Shown: positions 1-63,849 of the stretch, piece by piece
Numbering within the stretch: position 1 is the stretch's first letter
Layout: every line of letters begins with the position of its first letter
Assembly (NCBI RefSeq): GCF_029962835.1
Contig: NC_080590.1
Coordinates: forward strand, 56,728,001-56,792,000
DNA: 64,000 nt
Source of the DNA: Magnolia sinica
Taxonomy: Eukaryota; Streptophyta; Magnoliopsida; Magnoliales; Magnoliaceae
Reading direction: 5' to 3'
Translations under genes and position numbers: made by a program
The notes under the pieces: generated by a model
What the model saw: only the letters and a program-made list of their open reading frames with translations
Told to the model about the DNA's origin: nothing
The model's database searches: none

Positions 1-127
1 GCCAGGCCACCGATATTGATGTCCATAAGAAATGGACAACTTTATCATGGTCATAACAGTGGTTCCCACCTTCTAGGGACTCCCGCTCAATATCTGGATA
101 GCTCCGACATAAATACATAAACAAACT
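1..127 (-). repeat. Partial unit of 155-bp minisatellite
   Basis: One incomplete unit of the minisatellite that is tandem in copy B (25060-25600, about 3.5 units) and copy C (55490-55830, about two units). Shared landmarks are 'gtccataggaaatggac', 'tcatcatggtcataacag' and 'gctccgacgcacatccgga', in slightly mutated form. The minus strand stays open in several frames only because the unit lacks stops; I do not regard it as coding. Confidence 0.75.
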
Positions 128-3100
128 AATTAGGAACTTACAACAATAAAAGGTACCAGGTCTTTGAAAAATAAAGTAAATTAATAGGCCAAATATAACT
201 ACTTTAGTTAGAGTAATTCAGCCTTTAGGGAAGAGAATTCCACAATTTTTACAAGATGGAATTTCTTTCTTTAGAAGATGGTCTATGAGCTATAAGAGAT
301 GTTGAATCTGATAAGGAAGATAATGTAATAATATATATAATTCAATGAAAGATAATAAAAATCAACCTACAAAATTTAGCTTAAAAATTAGATTAAGAAA
401 ATTAAAACAATTAGCACAATCAGATTTTTCTACCCACTCTTCAATAGGAAATGATTTCACTTCTGGGTATGAACAAGTGCATGTGTGTGGGTGGGGTGTG
501 ATTTTTTGTTAAAAAGAAAAAACAATTGAGAAGACATGGTTATGGGAATATGAATATGACATGTGTCAAGTCAGCCTTGTGCCATGAATCACCTCTTTAA
601 TCTGGACTAATATGGGAATATGAACTAATATAGATGGGCAATGACGCTTACTCAAATGATGATGGAAATTGGGTCAGTCCACTAAATGGGCACTAGTGAA
701 CTCCAATTGGCTACAAAAAGGAATTGAGTAGATGACATGGTTATGATCATCTTATCATAGCAATTCTAGAGGAAGCCAATGCAATCAAAAGTGCAGTTTT
801 TACCCACACACCCCCCACACACACACACACACACACATTTTACCTTTCAATACTACCAAAAACTGCACCCCTGAATCGCTCACACACGCTATGCAATCTT
901 CACCAACTCATCCAACTAGTAGGAGACTTAATCCCATTTCATACAAGAAATATGGAATGTCCATTTTCCTAACAATTGTAGGAATATGGTCTGTTCCAAG
1001 CAGTCCTTAAAAAACACATGCAACCAAAATTAGCACACTTGATTGATATCCAGATTGATGTAAATAGATGGAGGAACAACTGTACTAATTTTGTGTGGAT
1101 GAAGGTAAAAAAATGTAAGCTTAATTCAAAACTTCTGTGGCCCTTAATTCAAAACTTAATTCTGAACAGTCCTTAAAAGAAAGAGAAAAAAGAAGAAGAA
1201 GACATCATTGCATATAGAGTACAAAGAAGTAGCATAGAGTACAACAAAACCTAACTTCATTGCATGAACATAAAATACATAGCTGAGTTAATTAATTGAA
1301 CTGGGATCTGAGAATTGAAAGTAATAAAAATCAATGTAATTACTAAAAAAATCCAACTTGTCCTATTTTTAAATTTTTTTTACTGAATTCTATTGAATCT
1401 ACCTAGTAGATTTCCTTGTTGATTTTGATTTTTCAAATATAGGTTAACCACGCCAGTTATAAACTTGACATAAAAAAGCTCTAAGCAATAAGTGAATGAA
1501 ATGGCAGCATTGATGCCAATAAAAAACAAATAGCTGAATGAAATGGTAGCATTGATGTGAGAACAAAGCACATACCTTTTTTCTTGAAGCTCTTGCAATG
1601 GCCTTTTATCCATCTAGCAAGGAAGTTGGAAACCGGCACGACTGATGCAGCAAGTCAAGTCAATGGATGGAACTCCACAAGTATACAACCATGCATGATG
1701 GGGAGCAAAGAGTTACTCTGCAATACTCAGGCATAGTAATGTAGAACACATTCAGAAAACAAGTTTGCGAGCTGATATTTAGTTGTAACGAAAAACTATC
1801 ATTAATTCAAACACTTGGACTACATTTAGATGCACAACCAAATCAAACAACAAACATGCGGCTCTTGATCAGGAGGAGAAAAGCAAACCTTAATGACAAC
1901 TCCTACCAATCATAATGACCAAGCTCCCTAGTTATGACCTAAGTGATGCAGGCCATGGATTCAACTGTCACAAAAACATTGTACATTGTTGAAATATGTG
2001 GCGTTGAACATGGAAACAATATACTGACATACCCTATCATTGCCAAATACAGATATGTCCTGTCTATAATAATATGTCGACTATAAAATAAAATAAAATA
2101 AAATAAAAAAAGATCCATTATACTAAACTTTATTAATGAATACTTCATACAACAATACCTCCTAATGCAGGAATAAGTCCAAAGTGAAGCTCAGTCAAAC
2201 CTAGTTGAGCAATAGAGGTAGAAATGCGTGCATGGCAAACCTGTATGGTAAGAACCATCACCTCATACAAAGACATCTCAATCATCAACATCATCATCAT
2301 TAAGCCTTATCCCAACTAATTGGGGTCGGCTACATTAATCCTTTTCCGCCATTCCATTCTAGCAACGACCATTTCATATATAAACCATACAATAAATACA
2401 TGTGAAAAGGAAAAAAAAAAAAAAAACAAAACACATAACACATTAAAGTGACCATGCCAAATACACATATCCAACATAGTCCCTGTCTAAAGCTCACTTA
2501 CATTTGAAGCTTTTGCCCATTCCATTATGCTTGATTTTGCCTTCTCAAGCACCCTCCAAAATTTGCCCACTTATATTTCTGAAGCAACGACTACCTTTCT
2601 CTCCAAAGTAACCACAGACCCACCAATGGAGCCATTCTCCACAAAGCCTTACCTACCTTGCCCAGTAGTTTCACTAGTATTTTTATTTCCCAATTTTCAT
2701 GATATTCTAGTTAGTTATACTTTTCATGGTCTAGTTTTTGAGATTTTAAGCACCACTTTAATTTTATTATTAATAAAACATTTAGCTAAGTTTCAGAAGA
2801 ATTCTATTTCGAATTTAATTTCTTTTAGTTTTGAAAAATAAAGTATCAATAATCTTGCTCTGCCAGAGTATTAAAGTTTCTCTATTTCTAAAAGGCAGAG
2901 AGAGCTTCGTCGAACAGAAGCCCAACAACATGTACCCAATGAAATCACTCGAACCCTTGTTTTTGGATAAAATCCCTTCCGATGTCCTTCATTAAGTCAA
3001 AGTTTTAGCTCCTTCAAGCATATTGCACGGATAAATAAAATTCGTGCATCAGTATACATACAATTGCAAAAATAAAAAATATCCAATCCAGAAGTTGCTC

Positions 3101-3132
3101 TAGTCATGAAGCATAAAAGCTATGGATCTTAC
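128..3132. other. Copy A interior, mostly unassigned
   Basis: AT-rich interior of copy A. A short segment at about 605-720 is homologous to about 57965-58070 in copy C (same 'gatgggcaat', 'cagtccactaaatgggc'), with a possible splice donor GTAAG on the minus strand, so A and C share at least one trapped or ancestral segment. A CA microsatellite lies at about 805-837. A donor-like GTATGT follows 'CAAGAAAAAAG' on the minus strand near 1574. About 2465-2660 has a donor-flanked open stretch on the minus strand that I cannot assign. No intact gene is seen. Confidence 0.5.
2300..2388. repeat. Dispersed plant retroposon tail
   Basis: Contains 'cccaactaattggggtcggc' followed by 'cttttccgccattcc', a phrase I recognise as very widespread in angiosperm genomes, at the tails of non-LTR retroposons. 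A diverged relative ('tagccttgtcccagctattt') lies at about 57017 in copy C. The family is not firmly named (RTE-type LINE tail or SINE). Confidence 0.45.
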
Positions 3133-3261
3133 TTGAAGCAACAAGAAACAAGTTGTCATCGAGCTCGATCTTGGTGGGGAAAACAATGGCAAACCAACGA
3201 GGATAGCGACCATCTTCATCTTTAAGTAGTTTCTTTATATTTGTATGAATAAATTGCAATC
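3133..3261 (-). pseudogene. Trapped host exon, unassigned (copy A)
   Basis: A 129-bp minus-strand segment bordered by a strong acceptor (tttcag at its right edge) and a consensus donor (GTAAG at its left edge), open throughout in one frame. Part of the peptide reads KDEDGRYPRWFAIVFPTKIE. The base composition (codon-like, higher GC) differs from the AT-rich flanks, as expected of a real exon. It looks like a conserved plant protein, but I cannot name the family. It sits in copy A with the same orientation as the UBA exon, so both could be spliced into one transcript from the right end. Exon borders are seen; host origin is inferred. Confidence 0.55.
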
Positions 3262-4601
3262 CTGAAATTTTCAAAGAAGAAGAGCTTATCAAGTTACAAA
3301 GCTTATACACGGTTAAAAAATATAGAGCTATATATCTTTAAAAGGAAAAAAAAAAAAAAAAGATCTACGGTGAACACAAAATACAAACTACAAAATAGAG
3401 CCACATGATCCACTACCATAGCTGCACAAATCAAAGTTACACCACAAAGCCAATACAAGCCAATCAAATAAATACAATATGGCATGTGTAAGATGCTTGG
3501 AGATGAATGGTAAGACAAGTACATATTAGAACCTTGCAATGGTCAATATTTGGATAGTCAAGTTATTTGACAAGTCACATGAATTCTTATCCATCCAATG
3601 TACATAACAAGAAACACAAAGGATGATAAAGGAAAACCAAGAAAGTTAACGAATCAACAAGATCTGAACTACTCCCAAAGGTTCTAATATCATTTCAATA
3701 GCAAAAACTATAAAAGTCCTGTAGTAAACAACCTTAAATATCATACATCATAACCTAAAAGTTCCAACAAAATAATCCTTAATTCAAATAGATCCTCGAC
3801 CATCATTCTCTAAGAATTTTCCAACACAAGGAACCCACTAGCCACTATAAATCAAGGAATAATATAAAACAGGAACTTGCCACATTACAACACTGTTTAA
3901 CAATATAATGACTTTGAAAGTCAAATCAAAAGGGGACTTTTTAATGCAACAATAGTGGCCAAGTAAGACAATTGATCCTACAACTTGGTCCACCAATTTC
4001 CTCATTTTTTTGGACATCACCTAAACTGATTTGTCAAAATGGATAGATTGGGTGGATAAAACACATACATCTGGAACAGTCGAATATATGGGAAACATCA
4101 TGGAATGGAGAAGATTGCGGAGGTAGAGTCTAGCATTTTGTGCTGATTTTGGATATTTTGGTAATGGGAAGTCATTACATGGTGGGGTCGAGTCTATATA
4201 TCACATCATTAGCTGCAAAAAATAAAATAAAATGAAGTGTTGGACCTGTTATGAGCTGATATAATGACCATCACAGCCATTGTACTAGTCAAGCTATCAT
4301 ATATTTGATATATTTAAATTTTTTTTAAAAAAAAACATCACTGTCGTGATGTTCTTTAGGGAAAAAAACAGCCAGCTTTTCAAAACCTTAATAGTGCATA
4401 TGTTCATAGACATCCAGAGAATCATCAAACAAAAACTCATGACGGCAACAATAGTGATTTGGGAAGAAGAAATTGAACTTCTTAGTGAGATACAAACACG
4501 AATTTCATCATCATAGCCTTGTCCGTTCTTATATGGAAGTATCTTTACTATTACAAAATGCAAAGTAGAGATGAAAAGAGAATTCTTATCAATTGCCTCA
4601 C

Positions 4602-4691
4602 CAGAATAATGGAGTGCCTTTGTTGCGCAAGCCATTGGAAATCCCATTGATTCGAGTTCGCCAATCTTACCAACTTCCAAAACAGCCATTT
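4602..4691 (-). pseudogene. Trapped UBA-domain first coding exon (UBX/UBA protein fragment)
   Basis: A 90-bp minus-strand exon after a consensus acceptor (aatttcag), starting two bases later with ATG and ending at a GTGAG donor. The peptide contains ESMGFPMACATKALHYSG, the UBA-domain signature (MGF/Y loop plus the 'ATKAL' helix and 'SG' turn) found near the N terminus of plant UBA/UBX-domain proteins. Such proteins bind ubiquitin and Cdc48. Only about 30 residues are present, roughly the first half of the UBA domain, and the rest of the parent gene is absent. It stops exactly at an exon border, which argues for capture of genomic DNA rather than of a processed mRNA. Domain assignment is confident; the exact parent is not. 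Confidence 0.75.
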
Positions 4692-5596
4692 CTGAAATTA
4701 AAAAGAAGAGATGCCAACGGACTAGAGCTCTATCTCTAATTCATTCAAATTCATAAACTTCAAACAAAGCACTAAGGCTGCATTTGGAGATGTGCAACGA
4801 GGCGGAATCACACCAAGATAACTGACACAAAAATGTTTTAGACAGACATCTTTTCCTTAAGGTGGCTAGAGTTGGACTACCATTATGACTTCTAGACACG
4901 GAGTCAATTAGATACAGTGAGCTTGTAGCAGCATGCATCTACATATTTTTCTTTTTGCTTTTTTCTTTCTTTCTTTTTTTTTGGGGAATTTCTTATACAC
5001 AAATTATATAGAATAACTGAATAAAAGAATACTTATTCCATACACAAACTATGGAATTACTTCTACCCAAATAAGATTTCTCCTGGGCATTTCATCAAAC
5101 ATCTAACAAGCATCATCCAAACAACCAAACTTAATAAGCCCATTTCATCAAATATATAACAAGCATCATGTAATCATACATGCCTTTCTTAAAACAACTT
5201 AATCTAAATCCTTCATTCTTAGTGACACAAACCATACTACATAAGGCCATAAATAAAAATTAATGCCTTCCCAAAAATCAAAGCCAATAGAAAAAAAAAA
5301 CAACATTGGATGTAATAAAAAATCAAAGGAATCGTGGCCTGCAAGATGAATCAACCAGATCTATGAAGACCGTACCTGTACAAATGCCGGCATGAATAAA
5401 AACCTTGAGCATGAAATTTTTTTTGATGAGGCTAGCATTTTAATCCAAAATTAGAATAGATTTCCACTCCATTAACATCGATTTCAAGAATCATGTGATC
5501 AAATCAGAACCCTAACCCTTATCTCAACCCCGTTCGTCAATGCACTCAATGTATTCAACCCCTTGTATGCGGAGATGGGTTACCGAGTTGCTACAA
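4692..5596. other. Copy A interior, unassigned
   Basis: Mostly AT-rich DNA. A minus-strand ATG-led short segment near 5380-5413 ends at a GTACGG donor-like site (peptide MLKVFIHAGICT). It could be the first exon of the transcript that would read through the UBA exon, but it is too short to assign. The open stretch 4741-4938 (minus) resembles no family I know. Confidence 0.3.
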
Positions 5597-5624
5597 TTAA
5601 GCATAGCTAGCAGTCTGATCGAGA

Positions 5625-5670
<46 letters not shown>

Positions 5671-5830
5671 CCTTTTGGGGTTGTGAACTTGTTGTAGCCC
5701 GCGAGAATGGCAGCGAGATTGAGAGAGGGAGAGAGGGAAAGAGAGAGGGTGGGGGAGTGAGAGAGGGAGAGGGCAAGGGCGAGTGAGAGAGGGAGAATGA
5801 GAGGGAGAGTGAAAGCAAGGGCGGGAGTGA
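5597..5830 (-). promoter_or_regulatory. GA-rich block near right end of copy A (putative 5' UTR/promoter)
   Basis: A GA microsatellite (about 5624-5668) and irregular GAGAGGGAG runs extend to about 5815, purine-rich on the plus strand and so CT-rich on the sense (minus) strand. Copies B (33570-33920) and C (63105-63290) have the same kind of block at the same distance from the right terminus. All trapped exons read leftward from it. CT-rich leaders are common in plant 5' UTRs; the promoter role is inferred from position only. Confidence 0.4.
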
Positions 5831-6251
5831 GGGATTTTCAGGGTATTTTACCCAAAAAAGACCCCGTCAATGCTTTTTGCTAGCGCGCCCAATTTGGGCG
5901 TCTTCTCACGGACGGACGCAGACGGTCCGGACAGGGGCTCCATGGGCCTACCATGATGTATTTGGTTAATTCATTCTAATCAATAATTTTAATAAATTAT
6001 TTTAGTTTATGACACCAAATTTCTGGTATATTTAAGGCCCAAGTGGACCACACGATAAGAAGCAACTGTAATTTAATATCCATGTTTCCTACCTTGTGGT
6101 CCACTTGAGCCTTCGAAATAGCTGATTTTTTTTTTTCATCCCCTAACGTAATATTTACAAATTATATAGATGGCTTAGATATAACATATAGTTTTTTTTA
6201 GGCCTCATAAAGCCCCTTACAACACCATTAATTATTAATGGTGTATCACCT

Positions 6252-6351
6252 TTTTAGCTACGGATTAAAACCGTAGCAACTATAGCTAAGGTTTATATCC
6301 GTAGTAAAAAAGTGACGTTGTCTGAATCCTTTGCCCCTTTTTTTGGTAGTG
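6252..6351. repeat. Right terminal/subterminal repeats of CACTA copy A
   Basis: Contains 'agctacggattaaaaccgta' and 'tttatatccgtagt' in inverted arrangement, then 'ttgcccctttttttggtagt' ending in GTG. The same series is at 34309-34407 (B) and, more diverged, 63731-63849 (C). Subterminal arrays of short motifs in both orientations are the transposase-binding region in studied CACTA elements; that role is inferred here. Confidence 0.8.
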
Positions 6352-22070: not shown

Positions 22071-22373
22071 AAAATTATAATAATACGACCTGTTTCCATT
22101 ACAAGAACCTATTGTGATTGATAACTCATCTAAGCTTAATGTTGATAGAAATAGTACATAAAATGCAATCAGAAAAAAAATGATGCATTTATTATAAATA
22201 GTAATCAAATCATACAATGCATCCTACATTCACATTTCTAAATAAACAATACTTCACTTTGCTTAACCTATCATAAGAATTACAACTAAGGCGTGCCCTC
22301 ATGTGCAAGAAATAAATACACTCCAACACAATAAACACCCTCCATACACATTCAATAATGCTCATGTTTTTAC

Positions 22374-25040: not shown

Positions 25041-25049
25041 TTTAATTTA

Positions 25050-29645: not shown

Positions 29646-29650
29646 TTATG

Positions 29651-33560: not shown

Positions 33561-33564
33561 GCGC

Positions 33565-50213: not shown

Positions 50214-50690
50214 CACTACCAAAAAAAGGGGCAAAGGCTACGGATTAAATCCATAGCCATAGACCTATGGCTACGGATTCAGTCCGTAGCTAGTCTGTAA
50301 CACGACCGTCGTCGTAGGTGAAATAACGATAGGTCTGGAACCTATAGCTACGGATTAAATCCGTAGCTATAGGTCAATGGCTACGGATTAAATCCGTAGC
50401 AATTATATCTGTAGCAAAAAACTTAAACAGCTACGGATATTATTTGTAGCTGAAAGTCTGTAGCAATAGGCCAAAATTTAAAAGGCTACACCTGTCTGAT
50501 TATTGGCTACGGATTTAATCCGTAGCTATATGCTAAATAGCTACAGATATAATCCATAACAATTATATCTGTAGCAAAAACTTCAAATAGCTACGGATAT
50601 TATTTGTAGCTGAAAGTCCGTAGCAATATGCCAAAATTAAAAAGGCTACACCTGTCTGACTAGTGGCTACGGTCAATATCCGTAGCTATT
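50214..50690. repeat. Left subterminal palindrome array of copy C
   Basis: A dozen or so copies of 'ctacggattaaatccgtag' and partners ('gctacggatattatttgtag', 'ctgtagcaaaaa'). It includes a duplicated segment of about 165 bp (around 50360-50520 and 50520-50690) differing by few bases. Confidence 0.88.
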
Positions 50691-50696
50691 TTGTAC

Positions 50697-50895
50697 ATTG
50701 AAAAATTAAATCATTTGTTCATTCAATTACCACCTGTTCATTCAATTACCACCTGTACAATCATTCATTCATTCAATTACAATCATTCATTCATTCAATT
50801 ACAATTACAATCCTTCATTCATTCAATTACAATTACAATCCTTCATTCAATTAATTACAATTACAATCAATAACAGTTACAATTACAATAATGCT
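50697..50895. repeat. ATTCAATTAC / CATTCATTC short tandem repeat
   Basis: Units 'cattcattcaattacaat' in tandem, about 12 copies with small changes, between the left palindromes and the SMC4 scrap. Low-complexity expansion. Confidence 0.85.
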
Positions 50896-50908
50896 GAAAA
50901 TACAAATC

Positions 50909-50977
50909 TTTGGCTTCATTAAAGAAATGTGCTCGACTTCACCCTGAAATTTCAACAACTTCGTATATTCCATCATC
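50909..50977 (-). pseudogene. Trapped SMC4 (condensin) scrap, internally deleted (copy C)
   Basis: On the minus strand, after the acceptor ctgtttgtag, the segment reads DDGIYEVVE, and in another frame ends QGEVEHISLMKPK. Both match the N-terminal ATPase-head region of plant SMC4 ('DDGTYEAVEGSDF' and, roughly 50 residues later, 'LQGEVEQISLMKPKAQGP'). SMC4 is a condensin ATPase of chromosome compaction. Here the residues between are missing and the two pieces lie in different frames, so it cannot encode a working head; it is a deleted remnant. Assignment by motif memory; both pieces agree with one gene, which strengthens it. Confidence 0.7.
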
Positions 50978-51140
50978 CTACAAACAGTCATGTCATTCAT
51001 AAATTAGAATGCCCATTGGAGAAAAGAAAGACAGTGAAAGAAGTGCATCATGTATAACAACTTTTTTTTTCTTAATGAATTAAAAAAAAACTCAAAGAGG
51101 ATTTAAATTGACACAAAAGAAATGGTCTCACCATATGATT

Positions 51141-54100
51141 ATAGGTTTAGGTTTTGGTTTAGGTTAAGGTTATAGGTTTAGGTTAAGGTTAGGCTATAGG
51201 TTATAATTAAGTTTAGGTTATAGGTTAAGGTTTAGGTTATAGGTTTTGGTTTAGGTTTAGGTTAAGGTTTAGGTTATAGGTTATAGCTTTTGGGAACTTT
51301 ATTACAGGTTAAGGTTTAGGTTTTGGAAATCGGGTTCGGGTTCGGGATCTGGTTTAGGTTTGGGTTTTCAAGTTTAGGTTTAGGTTAGGGAGTTGAGATT
51401 AGGATTAGGTGTAGGTTTGGGTTTAAGGATTTGAGAATACATTTAGGTTTGAAGTTTAGGTTTAAGTTAAAGGTTTTAGGAAAGGTTATAAGTTTAGGTT
51501 AGGTTTATGTTTAGGTTTAGGTTTAGGTTATGGGTTATAACTTTAGGGAATTGAGAATGGGTTATGGTTTAGGGAAATGTTAGGTTTAGGTAATAGGTTT
51601 TGGGATTTGGGAATAGTTTTAGGTTATAAGTATAGGTTTAGGTTAGGTTATAGGTTAAGGTTTAGGGATTTGAGTTTAGGCTATAGGTTTAGGTTTAGGT
51701 CTAGGTTTAGGTTTAGGGAATTGAGTTTAGGTTATAGGTTTAGGGAAAGATTAGGTTTAGGTAATAGGTTTTGGGATTTGGGAATAGTTTTAGCTTATAA
51801 GTATAGGTTTAGGTTAGGTTATAGGTTAAGGTTTAAGGATTTGAGTTTAGGTTATAGGATTAGGTTTAGGTTTAGGTTTAGGGATTTAAGTTTAGGTTAT
51901 AGGTTTAGGTTTAGGTTTTATATTTAGGTTTAGGTTTATGTTTGGGTTTTGGGATTTGAGAATGGGTTCGGGTTTAGGTTATAGGTTTTGGTTTTGGTTT
52001 AGGTTATAGGTTTTGGGATTTGAGAATGAGTTCGGGTTTAGGTTATAAGTTTTGGTTTTGGTTTAGGTTTAGGTTATAGGTTTTTGGATTTGAGAATGGG
52101 TTATGGTTTAGGTTTAGGAAATCGGGCTCAGGTTCGGGATTGGGTTTAAGTTTGGGTTTTCAAGTTTAGGTTTAGGTTTAGGTTAGAGAGTTGAGATTAG
52201 GATTAGGTGTAGGTTTTGCTTTAGGGAATTGAGTTTAGGTTATAGGTTTAGGGAGAGGTTAGGTTTAGGTAATAGGTTTTGGGATTTGGGAATAGTTTTA
52301 GGTTATAAGTATAGGTTTACGTTAGGTTATAGGTTAAGGTTTAGGGATTTGAGTTTAAATTATAGGATTAGGTTATGGTTTAGGTTTAGGTTATAGGTTT
52401 TGGGATTTGAGAATGGTTTCGGGTTTAGGTTATAGGTTTTGGTTTTGGTTTTAGTTTTGATTATAGGTTTTGGTTTAGGTTATAGGTTTTTGAATTTGAG
52501 AATGGGTTCGAGTTTAGGTTATAGGTTATGGTTTTATTTTAAGTTATAGGTTTTGATTTAGGTTATAGGTTATAGGTTTATGTTAAGGTTTATGTTTAGA
52601 TTAAAGGTTTTGGGATTTGAGAATGAGTTCACGTTTAGGTTATAGGTTTTGGTTTTGGTTTAGGTTATAGGTTTTAGGATTTGAGAATGGGTTCGGGCTT
52701 ATAAGTTTAGGTTTAGGTTATAGGTTTTGGTTTAGGTTATATGTTTAGGTTTAAGCTATAGGTTTTCGTTTTGGTTTAGGTTTAGGTTATAGGTTTTGAT
52801 TTAGGTTATAGGTTATATGTTTTGATTTAGGTTATAGGTTATAGGTTTAGGTTTTAGGTTTTGGTTGTGGTTTTAATTTAGGTTATAGGTTATAGGTTTA
52901 GGTTAAGGTTTTAGGGAAAGGTAATAGGCTTTGATTTAGATTATAGATTATAAGTTTAGGTTTTAGGTTTAGGTTTAGGTTTTGATTTATGCTATAGGTT
53001 ATAGGTTTAGGTTTAGGTTATAAGTTTTGGGATTTGAGAATGGGTTCGGGCTTAGGTTATAGGTTTTGGTTTTGGTTTAGGTTATAGGTTTTGGGATTTG
53101 AGAATGGGTTCGGGTTTAGGTTATAAGTTTTGGTTTTGGTTTAGGTTTAGGTTATATGTTTTTGGATTTGAGGATGGGTTATGGTTTAGGTTTAGGAAAT
53201 CGGGTTCAGGTTCGGGATTGGGTTTAAGTTTGGGTTTTCAAGTTTAGGTTTAGGTTTAGGTTAGGGAGTTGAGATTAGGATTAGGATTAGGTTAGGAATT
53301 GAGTTTAGGTTATAGGTTTAGGGAAAGGTTAGGTTAGGTAATAGGTTTTGGGATTTGGGAATAGTTTTAGGTTATAAGTATAGGTTATGGGTTAAGGTTT
53401 AGGGATTTAAGTTTAGGCTATAGGTTTAGGATTAGGTCTAGGTTTAGGTTTAGGGAATTGAGTTTAGGTTATAGGTTTAGGGAAAGGTTAGGTTTAGGTT
53501 ATAGGTTTTGGGATTTGAGAATAGTTTTAGGTTTGGGTTTTATGTTTAGGTTTAGGTTTAGGTTTGGGTTTTGGGATTTGAGAATGGGTTCGGGTTTAGG
53601 TTATAGGTTTTGGTTTAGGTTATATGTTTAGGTTTATGTTATAGGTTTTGGTTTAGGTTATATGTTTAGGTTTAGGTTATAGGTTTTGGTTTAGGTTATA
53701 GGTTTTGGGATTTGAGAATGGGTTCGGGCTTAGTTTATAGGTTTTGGTTTTAGTTTAGGTAATAGGTTTTGGGATTTGAGAATGGGTTCGGGTTTAGGTT
53801 ATAGGTTTTGCTTATAGGTTAAGGTTTAGGTTTAGGTTATAGGTTTAGGGATTTGAGAACGGGTTCAGGTTTAGGTTATATGTTTTGGTTATAGGTTATA
53901 GGTTTATGTTAAGGTTTAGGTTATAGGTTATAGGTTTAGGTTATAGGTTTTTGGATTTGAGAATGGGTTATGGTTTAGGTTTAGGAAATTGGGTTCAGGT
54001 TCGGGATTGGGTTTAGGTTTAGCTTTTCAAGTTTAGGTTTAGGTTTGGGTTAGGGAGTTGAGATTAGGATTAGGTGTAGATTTAGGTTTAGGGATTTGAG

Positions 54101-55475
54101 TTTAGGTTATAGGTTTAGGGAGAGGTTAGGTTTAGGTAATAGGTTTAAGTTAAGGTTATAAGTTAAGGTTTTAGGTCATGGGTTTTGATTTAGGTTATAG
54201 GTTATAGGTATAAGTTAAGGTTTAGGTTTAGGTTTAGGTTTAGGTTTAGGTTATAAGATATAGGTTTAGGGAATTGAGAATAGGTTAAGGTTTAGGTTTA
54301 GGAAATCGGGTTTGGGTTCGGGATCGGGTTTATGTTTGGGTTTTCAAGTTTAGGTATAAGCTTAGGTTAGGGAGTTAAGATTAGGATTAGGTGTAGGTTT
54401 AAGTTTAGGGATTTGAGAATACATTTAGGTTATAGGTTTAGGTTTAGGTTTTAGGTTTTAGGTTAAGGTTATATGTTTAGGTTAAGGTTTAGGTTTAAGT
54501 TAAGGTTGAGGTTTAGGTTATAGGTTAAGGTTTTAGGTCATGGGTTTTGGTTTAGGTTATAGGTTATAGGTATAAGTTAAGGTTTAGGTTTTGGGATTTG
54601 ATTAAGTTTAGGTTATAAGATATAGGTTTAGGGAATTGAGAATAGGTTAAGGTTTAGGTTTAGGAAATCGGGTTTGGGTTCGGGATCGGGTTTATGTTTG
54701 GGTTTTCAAGTTTAGGTATAGGTTTAGGTTAGGGAGTTAAGATTAGGATTAGGTGTAGGTTTAGGTTTAGGGATTTGAGAATACATTTAGGTTATAGGTT
54801 TAGGTTTAGGTTTTAGGTTTTAGGTTAAGGTTATATGTTTAGGTTGAGGTTTAGGTTTAAGTTAATGTTGAGGTTTAGGTTATAGGTTAAGGTTTTAGGT
54901 CATAGGTTTTGGTTTAGGTTGAGGTTATAGGTATAAGTTAAGGTTTAGGTTTAGGTTATAAGATATAGGTTTAAGGAATTGAGAATAGGTTAAAGTTTAG
55001 GTTTAGGAAATCAGGTTTGGGTTCGGGATCGGGTTTATGTTTGGGTTTTCAAGTTTAGGTATAGGTTTAGGTTAGGGAGTTAAGATTAGGATTAGGTGTA
55101 GGTTTAGGTTTAGGGATTTGAGAATACATTTAGGTTATAGGTTTAGGTTTAGGTTTTAGGTTTTAGGTTAAGGTTATATGTTTAGGTTGAGGTTTAGGTT
55201 CAAGTTAATGTTGAGGTTTAGGTTTAGGTTATAGGTTAAGGTTTTAGGTCATAGGTTTTGGTTTAGGTTAAGGTTATAGGTATAGGTTAAGGTTAAGGTT
55301 TAGGTTTACGTTTAGGTTATAAGATATAGGTTTGGGGAATTGAGAATAGGTTAAGGTTTAGGTTTAGGTTTTGGGTTTAGGTTTAGGTTTTAGGTTTTAA
55401 GTTAAGGTTTAGGTTTAGGTTAAGGTTGAGGTTTAGGTTATAGGTTTTAGGTCATAGGTTTTGGTTTAGGTTAAG
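51141..55475 (+). repeat. Telomere-like TTTAGG array of copy C (4.3 kb)
   Basis: Same degenerate GGTTTA/GGTTATA repeat as in copy B, nearly twice as long. The higher-order structure is clear: near-identical blocks of about 390 bp recur at about 54270, 54640 and 54980, each with 'gaattgagaataggttaa', 'aaatcgggtttgggttcggg', 'gggagttaagattaggatta' and 'gatttgagaatacattta'. Other blocks in 51.9-53.9 kb use 'gggatttgagaatgggttcg' instead, so at least two higher-order families are mixed. Open stretches such as 51577-51927 simply read the repeat (RFRFR, LGLGY) and are not genes. Confidence 0.93.
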
Positions 55476-55489
55476 GGTATGGTCCCTGC

Positions 55490-55830
55490 AAATACAGATA
55501 TAAACACAGCCATCCGACACAAATGCCAAGCCCTTCCAATGTTGTCCATAAAAAATGGACAGCTTCATCATGGTCATAATAGCGGCTCCCTCTTTCTAGG
55601 GAACCCCGCTCTTCCGAATAGCTCCTACGCACATCCGGGTCTGCTCCATTAATTTCGATCAAACACATAAACACGACTTGTCCAAATGGCCAGGCCTCTC
55701 CAATGTTGTCCATAGGAAATGGACATTTCATCATGGTCATAACAGCGGTTCCCACCTTCCAGGGACCCCCGCTCATCCAGATAGCTCCGACGCACATCCG
55801 GGTTTGCTCCATTAATTTCGAGCAAATTTA
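55490..55830 (-). repeat. 155-bp minisatellite of copy C (about two units)
   Basis: Units homologous to those in copy B, again immediately after the telomere-like array, beginning 'ggtccctgcaaatacagata' in both copies. Confidence 0.88.
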
Positions 55831-56237
55831 TATAGCAAATTCGTAACCACTTGGTCTCAAATACTTACTTTATAAAAGAAAATCTCCCATGTTTTCTCAA
55901 ATTTTCCATTTCGATCTTTTTTAGCTCAAATCCATGTCAATGCATGAGAATCATGCATAAACATGGATTATTAAGCAAAATACATGAGGGAAATTACAAC
56001 ATAGATATCATGCACACGATATCACATAATGTATTGTTTAATGAACTACACATGTGCATTCTTGACAAGAGACGTACCAGATGCTTGAATCTGAAATATG
56101 CAGCTCCAACCCTCCCACATGCAACATCTGGTTATCAGTATCAGCTAGGTGTAAGAAGCTAGAAAAACACACGCAGAAGAAATTAGTGAGAAAAACAAAC
56201 ATTGAGAAACATAAAAAGCTAAGAAAGTGGAAGACTT
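55831..56237. other. Copy C interior left of the NSF exons
   Basis: AT-rich. A minus-strand open stretch around 56050-56130 has an acceptor-like 'atatttcag' but is not assigned. Confidence 0.3.
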
Positions 56238-56281
56238 ACTCATTAAACTCGGTAAGATAACATGCAGATCACTTTGATCAC
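56238..56281 (-). pseudogene. Trapped NSF exon 2 of 2 (copy C)
   Basis: Minus strand, acceptor 'ttgttttag', reading GDQSDLHVI then a diverged tail. It continues in phase from the exon at 56386: the split glycine codon G|GT is preserved across the 104-bp intron. NSF has 'GDQSDLHVIIFDEIDAICK' here, leading to the Walker B motif; the Walker B part ('FDEID') is absent. The first nine residues fit the parent exactly. Confidence 0.75.
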
Positions 56282-56385
56282 CTAAAACAAGGAAAGAAAG
56301 GAATACAAATTAGACTATCAAAACAAGCATGTATGGCATAGCCATCACTATAAAACATGACATTTCTCTAAGCAAAGCTGCTCAC

Positions 56386-56460
56386 CGAGAATCCGTTGGT
56401 CATTCTCAGCATCAGCAAACAGGTCCCTTACATTCTTTTCAGTCTCTCCAACATATTTAC
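56386..56460 (-). pseudogene. Trapped NSF exon 1 of 2 (vesicle-fusing ATPase, copy C)
   Basis: Minus-strand exon reading [14 protein letters not shown] then ADAENDQR and ending at a GTGAGC donor. This is the AAA+ D1 region of N-ethylmaleimide-sensitive factor (NSF), the hexameric ATPase that disassembles SNARE complexes after membrane fusion. The parent plant protein reads '[29 protein letters not shown]'. The residues are almost unchanged, so capture is fairly recent or selection held for a time. It is followed by its natural next exon at 56238-56281, showing that an intron was captured with them. The Walker A motif upstream is not present. Confidence 0.88.
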
Positions 56461-56555
56461 TTAGGACTTAAGGCCCATTAAACAAAAGGCTAACGGTTAA
56501 TTGAAAAAGGCCCATAGGATATTTTTCATTTTTAGCTGTCCAAAAATATTCATAC

Positions 56556-56647
56556 CCCTCCGGCGCTGGCAGCCTTTTCTGGAACAATCAGAACTTTAGC
56601 CTTCCTCGGAACATCAATTGCTTGCGGCGTACAGGGCATATTTGAAC
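56556..56647 (-). pseudogene. Trapped NADP-type glutamate dehydrogenase exon (copy C)
   Basis: A 92-bp minus-strand exon, acceptor 'ggtgccag', donor GTATGA. The peptide runs SNMPCTPQAIDV, then KAKVLIVPEKAASAG. This is the cofactor-domain segment of hexameric NADP-type glutamate dehydrogenase ('EG(S/A)NMP-T--A', 'VL-AP-KAANAGGV'), the enzyme interconverting glutamate and 2-oxoglutarate plus ammonium. Plants have one such NADP-type gene besides the NAD-type GDHs; the 'NMPCTPEA' form points to it. A single exon is present, with no catalytic lysine region. Orientation matches the neighbouring NSF and FZR exons. Confidence 0.82.
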
Positions 56648-56734
56648 CTGGCACCCAGACAAGTATGTATTATTGGCAGAAAAGACAACTAAAATGGTAT
56701 TCTAAACCTTGCTTGAAGAGGAAGAAGAACTCAC

Positions 56735-56797
56735 TCTATTATCATTTCCACCAGATGCTAGTTCATGATTATCATAAGACCACTTTAGCCCACATAC
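56735..56797 (-). pseudogene. Trapped FIZZY-RELATED (Cdh1/CCS52-like) exon (copy C)
   Basis: A 63-bp minus-strand exon exactly 21 codons long, acceptor 'cattttag', donor GTGAG. The peptide VCGLKWSYDNHELASGGND matches the WD40 repeat 'EVCGLKWSYD-RELASGGNDN' of plant FIZZY-RELATED/CCS52 (and CDC20-like) activators of the anaphase-promoting complex, which trigger ubiquitination of cyclins. One WD blade only. It lies 87 bases upstream (sense direction) of the GDH exon. Confidence 0.85.
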
Positions 56798-57793
56798 CTA
56801 AAATGAGAAAACCAACCGTCAAAGCCAAGGAACAGTAGAAATACTAGATGAAGCATCAAAAGAAGAACTAATGCTTATCACAGATGATTTCCAATCTATA
56901 AGACAAAACAGTTAGCACATCTAATTTGAAAAGAAACAATTTAAAAGTAAAAGGAAGAAGAGTTTAGCACATCTACTTTAAAAAGGAAAATGTCTAAAGA
57001 TCAATCATCAATTCAACATAGCCTTGTCCCAGCTATTTGGGCTCAATGAATCCTATTTAAACCGGAATTTCATGATAGCTTGGTAAAAGTTCAAAACCTG
57101 GCAGCCCACCTAACATAAACGCTCCTCCCTTACTCGAGCAGGGGAGCGGCTGACGTAATCACAACCAGGTGGTGTTGGAAAGATCAATATGATGATGAGA
57201 ACAAATCACATACAGCTTATCCAACACACAGGTATAGCCCACTTTATGAGTAGACCTGCCTAATTTGTGCCACATGATCTTCGTTGTGGGGGGGCTAATA
57301 TCCTGATCTAACAGCCTACCATTTTATCTATGAATGCTTAGTTTTTGAATCTTCCTTGAAAATGGTAGAACTTACAATCATGGAGGACAAACTGCTACAT
57401 TTCTATCTAACCATGATAAGAAGTTTTTGAGGATAGGCGTGGCTTTGTGGGCCACAGAAGTTTTAGATCAAGCTGATTTTAATGTTTTCCCTCCATCTAG
57501 GTTTATTTGACTTTGTGAATAGGTTGGTGGAAAATAAACAGTCTAATTCGACTGATTTTGAATATAAATAGTCTGAATAATGATTGCTGATTTTGTTCTA
57601 TACATTAGAACCAAAACTCTCTTCCACCACCTTTGGAGTTTCACAATTAAGACATAAGAAATCTATATGAACAAACGATTTCTATATGAACAACTACCCC
57701 TTTTTTCAGAAATGACCTGCTAGTGTAAATTAATAAAACAGGAGTCCAAAAATTCACCCAAACAGGTAGATGTCACTGAAGCATATAGGAAAA
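56798..57793. other. Copy C interior, unassigned
   Basis: AT-rich DNA. Contains a diverged 'tagccttgtcccagctattt' retroposon-tail phrase at about 57017-57060. No supported exon. Confidence 0.3.
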
Positions 57794-57812
57794 CCGAGAG
57801 AGAGAATTTACC

Positions 57813-57894
57813 TGGATGACAACAATGTTATGCCTCTTACTATCAGCTTCTCGACGAGCAACTAATTGGATTGTTAGGATGTGTGTGGTAACCT
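57813..57894 (-). pseudogene. Trapped host exon, unassigned (copy C)
   Basis: An approximately 81-bp minus-strand exon with acceptor 'tttatttgtag' and donor GTAAAT, open in one frame: VTTHILTIQLVARREAD then SKRHNIVVIQ. Clean borders and coding character suggest a real host exon; I cannot name the gene. Confidence 0.5.
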
Positions 57895-58977
57895 ACAAAT
57901 AAATGGTTTTGAACATCAAGAGATTCATGCGTGGTGGAGAGTAAAAAATCAGAAGTAGGCAATAATCGGAATATGAACTAATACAGATGGGCAATAACAC
58001 TTACTCAAATGACAATGGAAATCGTGTCAGTCCACTAAATGGGCGCCAGTGAACTTTCCGCGTTTTGTTGAGTCAAGTTGAGTTTCTTTCAAGTCTTGAC
58101 TAAATTGAATTTTTCCCCCCAAGTTTTGATGGTATATGATCAAGTCGACTTGATTGCGCGAAGTTGAGTTTTCATGTTTAGCCAAGGTTACTACCATTGA
58201 ATGCACCTGAGAGCCCTTACTAGCAATGTCAATAACCAAAATACATCTTATTTATTTATTTTTTGGGGGGATCATCATTTTCCTACTACTTGTATGAGAG
58301 TTTCATTCAAGCAAAAATTCAGAATCTTTCTGCTACTAATATCAGGCTACAATTTTCAGGCATCATTATTTTCCAATTTTGATGCATTTTAATATGTATT
58401 TGTGTAATTGTATAGGGATATTCTAGCACTTGGAAGCATACAAATATACAATAGAAGGCAAAAATCAGCAGCAACTCCCATTGAGAAAATGAATGAGACC
58501 CATTGAATTTTTTTTTTTTTTTTAAAGGTGAATACACACAGTCATAGTCTCTTTCCAACTGCATTTATAACTAGAATTTGGTGAGTCTTCTAATGCAAAA
58601 AACCATTCATTGAGCAGGGGATGACAAAAATAAGGGCAAAAAAAAGTGTCCTACAATCTGATTGTAGCTCAGATTGGGAAAACATGTTTTTAGAGATCCC
58701 TGTGCTAATAGTTTCCTGTCGAACAAGAAAAGACCATCCACAAGAAAATGTATAAATTGAAGAGACGTGTCTTTCATGTACTATCAAATGAAACTAATAT
58801 AAAAAATAAATGAAACTTGCTTGAAGATTTTGAGATAGAAATTACATTTTTTCTGCTGTTGCAAGACAGGTTACATAAGAGTGCTGGCGGAGTGTATTGG
58901 TGCATGTCCCATTAGACAAATGATAGGAAAATATATTTTGGAGCTTTGGGGACCTCAAACTTCCTCAGCTTCCTTAG

Positions 58978-59046
<69 letters not shown>

Positions 59047-60099
59047 AACATTGACTTAATAAAATTGTTCACAAAAAAAAAAAAAAAAAAAAAATAACAA
59101 CTAGATAAATCAAACCATTTTATTTGGAAAGACACACATGATTGAGGTGAATTCAGGTGTCAACTATCAAAGTCTAAGGCAGACGTTAATCTTTCAACGT
59201 AGCTATTCACTAGCTAGTGATATGGATTTTTTTTCCACAATATGCAAACCATTATTCTGTGTGAAGATGCCAAGTTAACATTTATGAATTATTAAGACTT
59301 TGAAGATGCCTATCAAAGAGATGATGAGACCATTGAAAAAGATAATGACAATAACATAAGTTGCATTAGTAATTACTACATCAAAGTTTACTCATACAAC
59401 AAATAGATTTAACAATGCAAGACAAACGGATCAACAAATAGGTTCCACCAATGGACCCCACACGCTGGCCAATTAAGGCCTGTGGCAAAAATCCCATCCA
59501 ATTGGACCATGGGGTCCACAATCCAATCAACAGTCCATCAAATGGCATAATTGCTTGTGGGACAAACAAAGCCAACTGGATGGATGAAACAACAGAGCAA
59601 TTGGACTTAAGGGGCAACAAGTCCAATTAGCTAGGTATTTTTAGAGTTAATACAAATAATATATGCAAAAGTAGGGCTTTTGTACAACCATAGAGCCCTA
59701 AAGAGAGCCATACAGTTGTGGATAAACAGTTTTGAGAGTGTTTGGATCTTTGGATGGGATATTTAATAACATTTTAACTTTACTAATTGATTTGTAGTAG
59801 TTGAGGTATTTTAGGAATGTTTTGTTGAAGGACCAATAGGCTTTTAGCCTTGGCTTTAGTGAATTTTGATTGGGACTTGTGTCATTGGCTATATAACCAA
59901 AATCCAAGTAGTTAGCCTTGTTCTAATGTGTGGGGTTCAAACGTACCTCGTAGGGTGGAAGCTCTCTATGTTGGAATAGTTTGTTGGAATCTATGATAAA
60001 GATTAAAACAGAAATGTATCGAAAGATAATAGTTTGTTCAAATTATTTTAATGTACTGAAAAGGGATGTTGGCATAGTTCACATAATAGAAATACAAAC
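57895..60099. other. Copy C interior with microsatellites
   Basis: About 57965-58070 is shared with copy A (605-720). A GA microsatellite of about 60 bases lies at 58983-59043 and an A-run at 59072-59094. Plus- and minus-strand open stretches have no recognisable family and no paired splice signals. Confidence 0.4.
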
Positions 60100-60247
60100 C
60101 TGTGAAAAAATTCCGTCAACAATCCTGTATGTGAGAGCATGGTTACCATATCTAATAAGATTCTCTTTATCAATCAAGAAATCATGATCCATATCCAGCT
60201 CCCAGAATTTGCAGTATATCGCATAGAAATGTTCATAAGAGAAGTGC
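60100..60247 (-). pseudogene. Trapped PP2A B''-subunit exon (copy C)
   Basis: A 148-bp minus-strand exon, acceptor 'tttttacag', donor GTTTGT. The peptide [18 protein letters not shown] runs on with [12 protein letters not shown] and [18 protein letters not shown]. This is the EF-hand region of plant protein phosphatase 2A regulatory B'' subunits, which read '[30 protein letters not shown](R/K)[17 protein letters not shown]'. B'' subunits bind calcium through such loops (D-D-D-L-D-E pattern seen here) and target PP2A. The match is nearly complete over 49 residues, with few changes, ending at true exon borders. The remaining exons of the parent gene are absent. Confidence 0.9.
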
Positions 60248-60389
60248 CTGTAAAAAAAAAAATTATAAAAAAAAAGAGGGAAAAATAAAACAGGAATTTG
60301 ACAGATGAAGTTAACTCTTTTGCAATGAATCTTACAGCAGGAAGTGTTTCAATGGACAGATGCATTAGGTAGTGTCACCTTTAATCCAT

Positions 60390-60499
60390 AGTGGTTGCAT
60401 TAATATATAAGAATCAATTCTCCTATGCTTAACCACGATAAGAAATCATTCTATAAGAATCAATTCTCCTGTGCTTAACCATGATAAGAAATCATTCCT

Positions 60500-60500
<1 letters not shown>
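60390..60500. repeat. Direct duplication of about 52 bp
   Basis: 'taagaatcaattctcctatg' through 'gataagaaatcatt' occurs twice in tandem with two or three differences, and 'aaccatgataagaaaccaca' recurs at about 60541. Small local duplication inside copy C. Confidence 0.75.
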
Positions 60501-61490
<990 letters not shown>

Positions 61491-61499
61491 TCACTAGCA

Positions 61500-61990
61500 A
61501 GGTTTTCCCCTCTTCTTTTTTTTTTCTTTTTTCTTTTTTTTTTTTTTCTTTTTTTTTGCATCAACTAAGGTGATGCAGCAACCCCTTTTTTTTTTTTTCA
61601 AGAGGGCCATGCCCATAATCTTTGATAAAAGAAACGAAGATGTACATGCTACACTTTCGGGTGGGCTCCACCAAAAACATCGGGCCTCACCTATCATATC
61701 GGAAAATAGAAGACTAGAAAGGGGAATGAAAAAAATCAGAGCATGCCAAGCAGCCACTCAAAATGCAGAAAACTTCAGCTTCTACGCCTCCTTGCCAACC
61801 AATAGCAAGGAGACAATTCCTACTCACCCTCCGCCAGCTACTACCCGTCACCCTGCATTATCCAGATACTCTAAATAAACAAACAAAAAATCTGCAGCCT
61901 AAGTCTCTGCAACAGATAGACTGGATCTGCCCTGCCCTCCCATACAAAGTCTTTGAACATAGCCCAATCTGCTACTGAGAAAATCATTTC
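61500..61990 (-). mobile_element. Possible LINE-type 3' fragment (poly-A tailed, minus strand)
   Basis: Two T-rich tracts (61516-61557 and 61584-61599) at the left edge are an A-rich tail when read on the minus strand. To their right lies about 390 bp that is more GC-rich than its surroundings. A 5'-truncated non-LTR insertion would look like this. No coding motif or clear target duplication was found, so the class is tentative. Plus-strand open stretches over it are not convincing genes. Confidence 0.4.
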
Positions 61991-63104
61991 CTTTGGCGAT
62001 TGCATCTAATGATTGAGCAACAATGCAGACAACTAGCAAAATTTGGAGTATTTTACCATAACTCGCAAAAACATATCATGGTAATTCTTATGCAGACAAC
62101 TAATATAGCTGAAAGACATTGAAAATGCTTCAGATTTAAAGAAACGATTTCCTCACATTTGAAGCACTTGAAGCGAGAAAAAAAAAACATTAAAATTAAC
62201 AACTTGCTTGGGAGCAGGAAATAGCAATACCTGTAATATTACAATGATGACTTCCCAAAGTTTTAGTTATCGTCTATAAGCTTTGTAGTCACATGAGAAC
62301 AAGTTTGACAAAATATAAGATAAACTTAGCTTGAGCTCTTTTTGGAATTGATGTAATTGTGGATACCATCAAACATTATTCATACTACTGACCTCTACCC
62401 TGAAAGAAACAAGTCTAATGAAAGATGGATTCTTCATCATCATCTACATGGGCAGGGGATACAGAGTTGTTGAACCTGAACAGAACATAATAAAGTATAA
62501 ATGAAAATCAGTAAAAGAACAGATGCATGCAATGCCAAGCATCTACACTGTAAGCAACTATGGCACTCCTTATCCAGTAAATAAAATAACAACATGAAAC
62601 ATTCCTTGTTAAGCCATTTCATCAAACAGTTAGCATGCATGAAATATAGGAGGAATTTTTTATTTTTATTTTTTTCCTTACAAGAAGAAAAAGAAAAGGA
62701 AAGAGGAACAATCCACCACAACCAAATCTACCCATACCCTACTCATCTTCGAGCCTGCTGAGATTCAACAGCAAATCACCATCACCACATCTTCATCTAG
62801 CTGCCACAACTCTGCGGCACACAACTGCCGAGCCCATCAAAACCTCTGCTTCCACCCTCTCCATTTGGCATCACCATCACCATCACCACAACTCCACCGG
62901 CTGCCATTACAGATCCATAAAAAACCCATCAAATCCTATAAAATAAAAAAGGAGAAGAAGAAAAAGCATACTGTCTATGTAGGATTAGGGCATCGAACTG
63001 GGTGCTCACTTGGCAACCATCCTCGTTGAAATCCTCATATCTGATCCACTCGTTGAACTCAGAGGGTTAGAGCTACTCACTAATGCTGTTTAGGACATGC
63101 AGAA
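61991..63104. other. Copy C interior near right end, with exon-like scraps
   Basis: A minus-strand segment near 62418-62480, after the acceptor 'gttctgttcag', reads SVSPAHVDDDEESIFH and then a stop. Another near 63000-63050 reads EFNEWIRYEDFNEDG before a GTGAGC donor. Both look like pieces of trapped coding exons, unassigned. 62750-62940 is CAC/CCA-rich. Confidence 0.35.
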
Positions 63105-63300
63105 AAATAGAGAGAGAGAGAGAGGTTGGGAAACAGAGAGGGGAATGGGGCCAAGAGACAGAGATCGAGAGAGGGCGAGGGAAAGGGATAGGCTGAGTGC
63201 GAGAGAGAGAGAGGGTGAGGGAGCGTGGGAGATGGAGAGAGGGCGGGGGAAAGGGAGAGGCTGAGTGCGAGAAAGAGAGAGGGTTTGGGTTTTGGGAGAT
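63105..63300 (-). promoter_or_regulatory. GA-rich block near right end of copy C (putative 5' UTR/promoter)
   Basis: Alternating GAGAGAG and GGGAGAGG runs, the counterpart of the GA blocks in A and B, followed to the right by GC-rich sequence ('gcgcgcacgggacgattagc'). All trapped exons read away from it on the minus strand. Regulatory role inferred from conserved position. Confidence 0.4.
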
Positions 63301-63724
63301 GCCCGCGTGGGATTTCTTTAGGAGAAAGGGCGCGCACGGGACGATTAGCGCGGACGGTTTGGGTTTTGGGGGTGACAGACGGCACCTTCAGTGCTTACTT
63401 TTAGCACTCGTGGGGCCCACCGTAATGTATGTTAGTTATCCACTCCGTCCATTCATTTTAACAGATCATTTTAACAATTGATTCAAAAAAGGATGCATAT
63501 CGAAGCTGTAAACGTACCACATAACATATTAATGATAAATATTTATTTTTAATTATTTCTTATGGTGTGGTCCACTTAGACCTTCAATCTACCTAGTTTT
63601 TAGGCTCATCCACTGAAATTATATATAAGAATTGATGGGTGGCTTAGATAAAACACATACATTCCAACGGGCCTCATGGAGCCCTTTAAGCACCATCTAT
63701 CTCTAATAAGATCATGGTGGGGAT

Positions 63725-63849
63725 GTGGTTTTAGCTACAGATTAAATAGGTTTTAGCTACGGATTAAATCTGTCACATATTAGCTACGGTTTATATCCGT
63801 AGCCAAAAGCTTTCAAAGTCCGTAGCCTTTACTCGATTTTTTGGTAGTG
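63725..63849. repeat. Right terminal/subterminal repeats of copy C
   Basis: 'agctacagattaaatagg', 'agctacggattaaatctgtc', 'tagctacggtttatatccgt', then 'cgattttttggtagtg' at the terminus. More diverged than the A and B right ends. Confidence 0.85.

Follow-up and report, generated by a model that had tools for sequence, protein, structure and literature searches.

The window, a stretch of 64,000 nucleotides of the Magnolia sinica genome (G000:C18:56728001-56792000, in an assembly of 1.84 Gb and 127 contigs), contains three related DNA transposons of the CACTA type, here termed A, B, and C. Inside B and C lies a telomere-like tandem array. Taking the whole explanation together, we consider it probable that the three elements are 'pack-type' transposons, non-autonomous and exon-capturing, from a large CACTA family of Magnolia sinica, and that the array descends from the transposase gene region of this family and is not a captured telomere. 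The elements read from right to left; sense therefore denotes the minus strand of the window. The features on which this rests are the following.

21622..34407, minus strand: element B, a complete CACTA element with CACTA ends, the target site duplication (TSD) TCG/CCG (one mismatch), and a paralogous empty site at about 43210-43390
50214..63849, minus strand: element C, a complete CACTA element with CACTA ends and the perfect TSD TTT
1..6351, minus strand: element A, right part only, its left part lying outside the window; right end 86% identical to B
21622..22060, plus strand: left end of B with subterminal GCTACGG...CCGTAGC palindromes, with 11 copies of the motif in the leftmost 1 kb of B, 2 in its rightmost 0.3 kb, and 0 in the interior
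50214..50690, plus strand: left end of C with subterminal palindromes, with 14 copies of the motif in the leftmost 1 kb of C, 4 in its rightmost 0.3 kb, and 0 in the interior
about 43210..43390, plus strand: paralogous repeat corresponding to the empty site of B, from alignment of the joined B flanks with one TSD copy kept
22742..25053, plus strand: telomere-like array of B, with TTTAGG, TATAGG, and TTAAGG units; sense strand CCTAAA-like
51140..55477, plus strand: telomere-like array of C
25076..25592, plus strand: minisatellite of B, directly right of the array
55520..55832, plus strand: minisatellite of C, directly right of the array

B starts with CACTACAAGAAAAATGGGC and ends with ...TTTTTTTGGTAGTG, while C starts with CACTACCAAAAAAAGGGGC and ends with ...TTTTTTGGTAGTG. 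The terminus of A at 6351 is the same as the right ends of B and C, and A and B are 86% identical over 478 aligned bases (5875-6351 and 33949-34407, respectively). When the flanks of B are joined, they align through the insertion point with the repeat around 43210-43390, showing that B, array and interior included, inserted as a single unit. These ends, the duplications (TTT/TTT in C, TCG/CCG in B), and the empty site bear out the original prediction that B and C are CACTA elements with shared ends and subterminal palindromes, and its placing of the array in B and C and of the minisatellite in all three elements was likewise correct. In A the minisatellite survives as a remnant at 3-108, which is consistent with an array lying just outside the window; what the window contains of A corresponds to the right-hand portion of an element resembling B. 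The arrays of B and C are G-rich on the plus strand, with a GC skew of about +0.9.

The wider family and its variation

We searched the genome with the 99-bp right end of C (1579 first-look candidates, 40 scored) and with the minisatellite (2074 first-look candidates, 40 scored), a search that the original prediction had itself set as a test. The best ten of the 39 scored right-end places outside the window, e1 to e10, were analyzed as further copies; because they were chosen by their match to C's own right end, the sample is tilted to C-like copies. For all ten, a left end matching the right end was found 8.2-19.2 kb away, chosen among the CACTAC[CA]A matches (one to three per element) by sequence and duplication. 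Shared ends, array, and minisatellite do not co-occur in the window copies only, and the spread of sizes does not agree with the predicted fixed length of about 13 kb. Terminal inverted repeats CACTAC...GTAGTG are present in all 12 complete elements (B, C, and e1-e10). The 3-bp TSD is perfect in eight of the ten copies and has one mismatch in e4 and e9, and the subterminal GCTACGG/CCGTAGC motifs number 4-15 in the left 1 kb and 1-5 in the right 0.3 kb, with none between, in 12 of 12.

Nine of the 12 complete elements (B, C, e1, e2, e3, e5, e6, e9, and e10), and so seven of the ten outside the window, carry the array and the minisatellite; the array is missing in e4, e7, and e8, for which reason the term 'fixed architecture' used in the prediction is too strong. 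Where present, the array starts 862-1289 bp from the left end, is always G-rich on the same strand, and is directly followed by the minisatellite. The arrays are between 2.3 and 5.8 kb long, contain higher-order repeats, and differ from copy to copy by many indels. The boundary between array and minisatellite is alike in all nine, whereas the left boundary of the array takes the form of three different junctions, one shared by C, e1, e2, e3, e5, e6, and e9, one found in B, and one in e10. C, e1, e2, e3, e5, and e6 form one close subfamily with right halves 96-97% identical, so that the nine array carriers amount to about four lineages. In all eight minisatellite loci among the matches listed, one of them B, the array lies directly before the minisatellite.

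Genome-wide, the left-end pattern has 245 matches without mismatch, which are counts of ends and not of elements, and the array/minisatellite junction has 619; the reversed controls gave 0 in both cases. GA-rich repeats were located by Tandem Repeats Finder near the right ends of A, B, and C, as the predicted GA-rich right block would have it, but only 3 of 13 right ends have, in the adjoining 2 kb, a 100-base stretch with 88% purine. In e1 (joined from L010 and L009), element positions 8906-13105 are a 4.2-kb insertion relative to C; the 9-bp overlap at its joint looks like the 9-bp duplication of an inserted element.

The original prediction had named a contrary case, in which the ends come from unrelated elements and the arrays and exons are pre-existing host sequence. 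We regard this as extremely improbable. In its favor is the general fact that CACTA ends are common; it is contradicted by the empty site of B, by duplications in 12 of 12 elements (nine perfect, three with one mismatch), and by the identical order of parts at nine places on seven contigs. Ends that are chance neighbors are ruled out for B by its empty site and are very unlikely for C.

The array and the transposase start

A genome search for Transposase_21 yielded 1669 candidates, of which 150 were scored and the six best-scoring loci (L045-L050) were read. In all six, an array with a CCTAAA-like sense strand lies directly 5' of the transposase ATG, and the order is array, a conserved stretch with an acceptor-like TTTCATTGTAG, and ATGGATA, the start being shifted in L048. 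Two transposase frames scanned by Pfam matched Transposase_21, Transpos_assoc, and DUF4218. The transposase-start motif has 269 genome copies within one mismatch (control 0). We compared by eye the 41 transposase-start places without mismatch up to contig position C7:24.8 Mb, and found an AACCTA unit 30-60 bp upstream in 38 of them, where about 1% is expected at equal base frequencies; the control for this search was 0, and its totals of 203 and 81 include repeat-counted places.

Of the 31 transposase places on contigs C1 and C2, five are accompanied by an array/minisatellite junction at 10 kb or less, in each case on the 5' side; 0.2 are expected, and none of 20,000 shifted sets reaches five. 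Left ends and junctions co-occur within 25 kb in 5 of 35 cases, four of them as predicted, a result matched by 9 of 20,000 shifted sets. All nine element arrays and four of the six transposase-side arrays contain a common 26-mer of the array. Shared array 24-mers exceed a unit-shuffled control in all six loci, and shared 30-mers do so in L045, L046, L047, and L049.

Several neighbors were considered individually. The junctions at G000:C1:45444758 and C1:116074110 lie on the 5' side of a transposase, at 9.0 and 4.8 kb, but are oriented contrary to prediction, perhaps because arrays are inverted or elements nested there. On contig C2, the 25-kb stretch G000:C2:36543812-36569193 has a right end, a junction, and a left end in this order, and at C2:44443088 and C2:119042668 a junction and a transposase are 3.9-4.1 kb apart. 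In the predicted orientation, 13.1 kb separate a left end at C4:75007065 and the transposase start at C4:74993948; a B-type left end on contig C9 has a transposase 9.3 kb away, in the orientation not predicted. By rough estimate both of these last two are within chance. The transposase at C4:74993948 is one of the three of 41 without the AACCTA unit.

The arrays do not resemble the telomere of their host. The host telomere repeat is TTTAGGG, found near the contig ends of C2, C3, C4, and C7 in the expected orientation (among the first 100 of 980 places), and differs from the unit of the element arrays, which are hexamer-based and hence not interstitial telomeres by repeat unit. AGGGTTT occurs once over nine element arrays combined, and TAGGGTTT once over the fifteen arrays counted. 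The hexamer units and the near-absence of AGGGTTT rule out an origin of the array from the host telomere. A short perfect TTTAGGG run does exist at G000:C2:44762364-44762426, far from the ends of a chromosome-sized contig and unlike the element arrays. The array could instead have been captured independently, as a host interstitial telomere or satellite, and then have spread through one founding capture. The unit does look like a plant telomere, and CACTA elements holding captured satellite arrays exist, as reported for Jozin (PMC8978399); set against the host's TTTAGGG, the rarity of AGGGTTT and TAGGGTTT, and an array at the transposase start in all six loci read, we consider such a capture unlikely. 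An array that lies 5' of the transposase in six of six loci (with an AACCTA unit upstream of the start in 38 of 41 places), and that is not host telomere, is most simply part of the parent transposon. The prediction's view of it as packaged telomere-like cargo is not supported.

Host exons and exchanged modules

The interior of the elements was compared with Pfam and with protein sequences from PDB. The matches in the window, and a module of C, are as follows.

56378..56485, minus strand: exon fragment of NSF (vesicle-fusing ATPase) in C; PDB sequence match E 9e-6, no Pfam match
56556..56647, minus strand: glutamate dehydrogenase (GDH) exon in C with AG/GT flanks; Pfam PF00208 E 2.8e-6, PDB match E 8e-4
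56735..56797, minus strand: FZR/CDC20 WD40 exon in C with AG/GT flanks; Pfam PF24807 E 5e-5, PDB match E 0.03
60100..60247, minus strand: PP2A B'' exon in C with poly-T, AG, and GT flanks; PDB match E 1.5e-15
60613..60728, minus strand: BEACH-domain exon fragment in C; Pfam PF02138 E 1e-13, PDB match E 3e-8
4594..4659, minus strand: weak UBA-like fragment in A
56694..58318, minus strand: module in C (element positions 6481-8105), common to e7 and replacing 540 bp kept in e2 and e3

The match to PF24807 falls under that family's whole-protein cut-off because the fragment is short. Of the cargo predicted for C, the PP2A B'', FZR, GDH, and NSF exons were recovered by Pfam or PDB, but SMC4 found no database match. 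The UBA proposed for A has a UBA-like match, but a weak one (Pfam UBA_7 E 0.011, below cut-off). None of the genes proposed for B (CAP-G, callose synthase, and a coiled-coil protein) has a database match, the latter two being plausible by eye; B gave no Pfam match at E<=0.1 and no PDB match on the sense strand, and e10 no sense match at E<=0.05. That copies differ in their host exons, as predicted, is clear from further elements with matches on the sense strand: ATG8, sucrose synthase, and TPR in e9, pectinesterase, CDC20 WD40, and BEACH in e7, and a PAZ fragment in e8. Host gene fragments within a non-autonomous element, the pack-type trait, are thus present in C, e7, e8, and e9 by Pfam or PDB.

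There are 12 sense matches at E<1e-3, ten by Pfam and two by PDB only; since the BEACH and FZR exons sit in stretches common to C and e7, they represent ten different genes. A two-strand Pfam scan of C, B, e7, e9, and e10 gave nine sense matches (seven different genes) and no antisense match at the same threshold. Every significant cargo match found lies on one strand. The elements scanned were A, B, C, and e7-e10, of which B, C, e9, and e10 were examined only to the right of the array, beyond the ~1 kb on its left; e1, e2, e3, e5, and e6 have most of C's right half in common. PDB comparison was confined to the sense strand, as were the scans of A and e8. Antisense matches to AI-2E in B (E 0.029) and Apis_Csd in C (E 0.019) are weak and were taken as chance, and sense matches to LRR in e9 (E 0.0014) and RGP in e8 (E 0.002) were kept out of the counts.

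In C, the FZR, GDH, and NSF fragments fall within a stretch of 420 bp. The FZR, GDH, and PP2A B'' exons keep an acceptor AG and a donor GT in their flanks, indicating uptake as genomic DNA. The 1.6-kb module of C has sharp joints on both sides, with about one shared base, and e5 and e6 break at the same positions of C. In a genome search with the FZR-GDH-NSF stretch of C (53 candidates, 40 scored), GDH-NSF starts at query base 127 in 25 places and one more place covers 127-274, FZR ends at query base 127 in three places, and the two parts occur together only in C and e1; one and the same joint of the module thus shows up from either side. No further CACTAC ends were found at the joints of the 1.6-kb module. 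Sharp internal joints without internal ends fit template switching during gap repair better than fusion of neighboring insertions, and from this one case we infer that the former would be the more apt account of the module swap. At L043, L044, and nine more places in the module search, the last 48-75 bases of the NSF module are repeated ~20-40 bp away, a local duplication common to several copies.

The window also contains other repeats. Positions 7757-13714 hold a broken long terminal repeat retrotransposon with an 86% identical repeat pair and fragments of gag, reverse transcriptase, RNase H, and integrase in shifting frames. A repeat of about 1.9 kb with CTACGACTGGTCGTAGG units occurs at 27707-29645, inside B, and at 46758-48550, outside A, B, and C, with 74-76% identity; part of B's interior therefore belongs to another repeat family. 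TGGGCC-rich minisatellite blocks in inverted orientation lie at 35093-36438 and 38835-39619, with related pieces at 18702-21236, and are perhaps subterminal parts of another large element.

Proposed history of the array and comparison with known systems

To account for what is directly observed, namely the structure of the elements, their copy number, the strand of the cargo matches, and the array beside the transposase, we propose a parent element with the order left end, transposase (read leftwards), array, minisatellite, and right end. The array and the acceptor-like TTTCATTGTAG would probably form a large intron or leader of the transposase gene. In the exon carriers, the transposase would have been deleted with breakpoints in or beside the array, while array, minisatellite, and both ends were retained; repeated loss of the transposase side would leave several left junctions beside a single right boundary, and three against one are observed. 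The host exons, part of them still flanked by splice sites, would have entered mostly on the 5' side and in the sense of the transposase, probably through template switching during gap repair, with copies swapping modules. The ends would be mobilized in trans by the family's transposase, and transcription may proceed from the right end across the host exons and the array.

A number of results weigh against this history. The main gap is the complete parent: a transposase-bearing element with both ends was not seen, and none of the 31 transposase places on contigs C1 and C2 lies within 25 kb of any of the 35 listed left ends. The transposase coding parts of the six loci gave 0 blastn and 0 tblastx rows at E 1e-3 against the 13 elements and the window, which rules out a transposase remnant in the three window elements, in the ten further copies, and elsewhere in the window, and leaves no remnant to link the transposase loci to the exon carriers; such matches as another comparison gave are between array and array. 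Only three of the five junction/transposase neighbors have the predicted orientation. Shared array 30-mers fall below the unit-shuffled control for L048 and L050, and shared 36-mers occur in L046 and L049 only. The ten copies were selected as closest to C's own end, and a single close subfamily supplies six of the nine array carriers. As for the cargo, the PP2A B'' and NSF matches come from PDB and have no antisense control, and the Pfam and PDB scans gave no match below E 1e-3 in A, B, or e10.

The base composition of the array offers a possible explanation for the strand of the cargo. On the sense strand, AG occurs 3-7 times per kb in arrays against 50-54 in the rest of the same elements, and GT 2-5 against 54-61. 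A multi-kilobase intron or leader with a sense strand nearly free of AG and GT, and with the acceptor at its end ahead of the transposase ATG, could be a working part of the transposase gene, a built-in exon trap: the splice-silent spacer would steer upstream 5' splice sites to the transposase exon, and the element would then tolerate and accumulate sense-oriented host exons upstream. Telomere-like DNA would in that case be connected with exon shuffling. Branch-point-like CTRAY words, at 7-13 per kb in arrays against 3-5 in the rest, seemed to point the same way, yet letter-shuffled arrays have 8-9 per kb, so that, B excepted, base composition explains their density. For this reason we lowered an already low estimate slightly, and hold the exon trap to be rather unlikely; an array unit without AG and GT gives the depletion automatically, which is hence no proof of function, and the model is testable. 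A serious rival, to which we would give somewhat below an even chance, is that the array is functionless DNA grown by neutral slippage in a non-coding spacer of the transposon, the strand bias being due either to removal of antisense exons by selection or to small sample size. The variable length of the array, its higher-order repeats and many indels, its absence from three of 12 elements, and CTRAY words accounted for by composition in all arrays but that of B are as expected from slippage; the same strand and side in nine of nine elements, a minisatellite boundary alike in nine of nine, and adjacency to the transposase start in 38 of 41 places are harder to reconcile with it.

The array might also act at the level of DNA. 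Telomere-type Myb proteins bind GGTTTAG, and each element array contains 92-189 copies of this motif; together with a strong strand asymmetry, this would suit a platform that sets chromatin state or integration by way of a two-tetrad G-quadruplex, an R-loop, or a Myb site. In light of the absence of TAGGGTTT from 14 of the 15 arrays counted, we think such a platform quite improbable.

Whatever the array does, the family is a natural case that unites, in hundreds of copies, the capture of host exons, a preference for one strand among them, the exchange of modules between transposons, and a long array whose sense strand is poor in G, and comparison of its copies allows models of how DNA transposons acquire host exons to be tested. 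It also cautions that the source of telomere-like arrays inside plant chromosomes can be a transposon rather than a chromosome end or a fusion, a point for the interpretation of interstitial telomere signals.

In the Tpn1 family of Ipomoea nil, also CACTA, conserved ends with subterminal repeats enclose an interior replaced by captured host gene segments, some of them transcribed; there are 339 non-autonomous copies with 3-bp duplications and rare transposase-bearing copies (PMC5105172). Its tandem repeats of 122 and 104 bp are subterminal and the portion consulted does not mention a telomere-like array, whereas the array of the Magnolia family is hexamer-based, 2.3-5.8 kb long, internal, and beside the transposase start. 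Tgm-Express1 of soybean is a 5.7-kb CACTA element with five unrelated host gene fragments, which retain their splice sites and behave as cassette exons in splicing; unlike the present family, it is a single characterized insertion, and neither array nor minisatellite is mentioned in the sections compared (PMC1947982). Jozin of Chenopodium combines captured gene fragments with a satellite array in some copies, 5.5 kb long in one, but the satellite unit is 171 bp and not hexamer-based, lies near the 3' end, in transposase-bearing copies, and is not described, in the extract consulted, as lying 5' of the transposase (PMC8978399). Pack-TYPE elements, Pack-CACTA included, are non-autonomous DNA transposons whose copies have their ends in common and enclose coding sequence of the host; the capture proposed for them is fusion of neighboring insertions, in contrast to the one module swap seen here, with sharp internal joints and no CACTAC ends there (PMC8903248).

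A study of CACTA transposase introns reports a first-intron gain in one clade and no transposable elements in those introns (PMC4158355). No description of a telomere-like array within the transposase gene of a CACTA element came up in a literature search by title and start of abstract, although one may exist all the same; two co-mentions proved unrelated. The original prediction of an undescribed class does not extend to exon capture, for which CACTA families had been described before. Exon-capturing CACTAs (Tpn1, Tgm-Express1, and Pack-CACTA) and CACTAs with satellite arrays (Jozin) are already known; what is new here, as far as the titles and abstracts searched extend, is a hexamer array that adjoins the transposase start and persists in the exon carriers.

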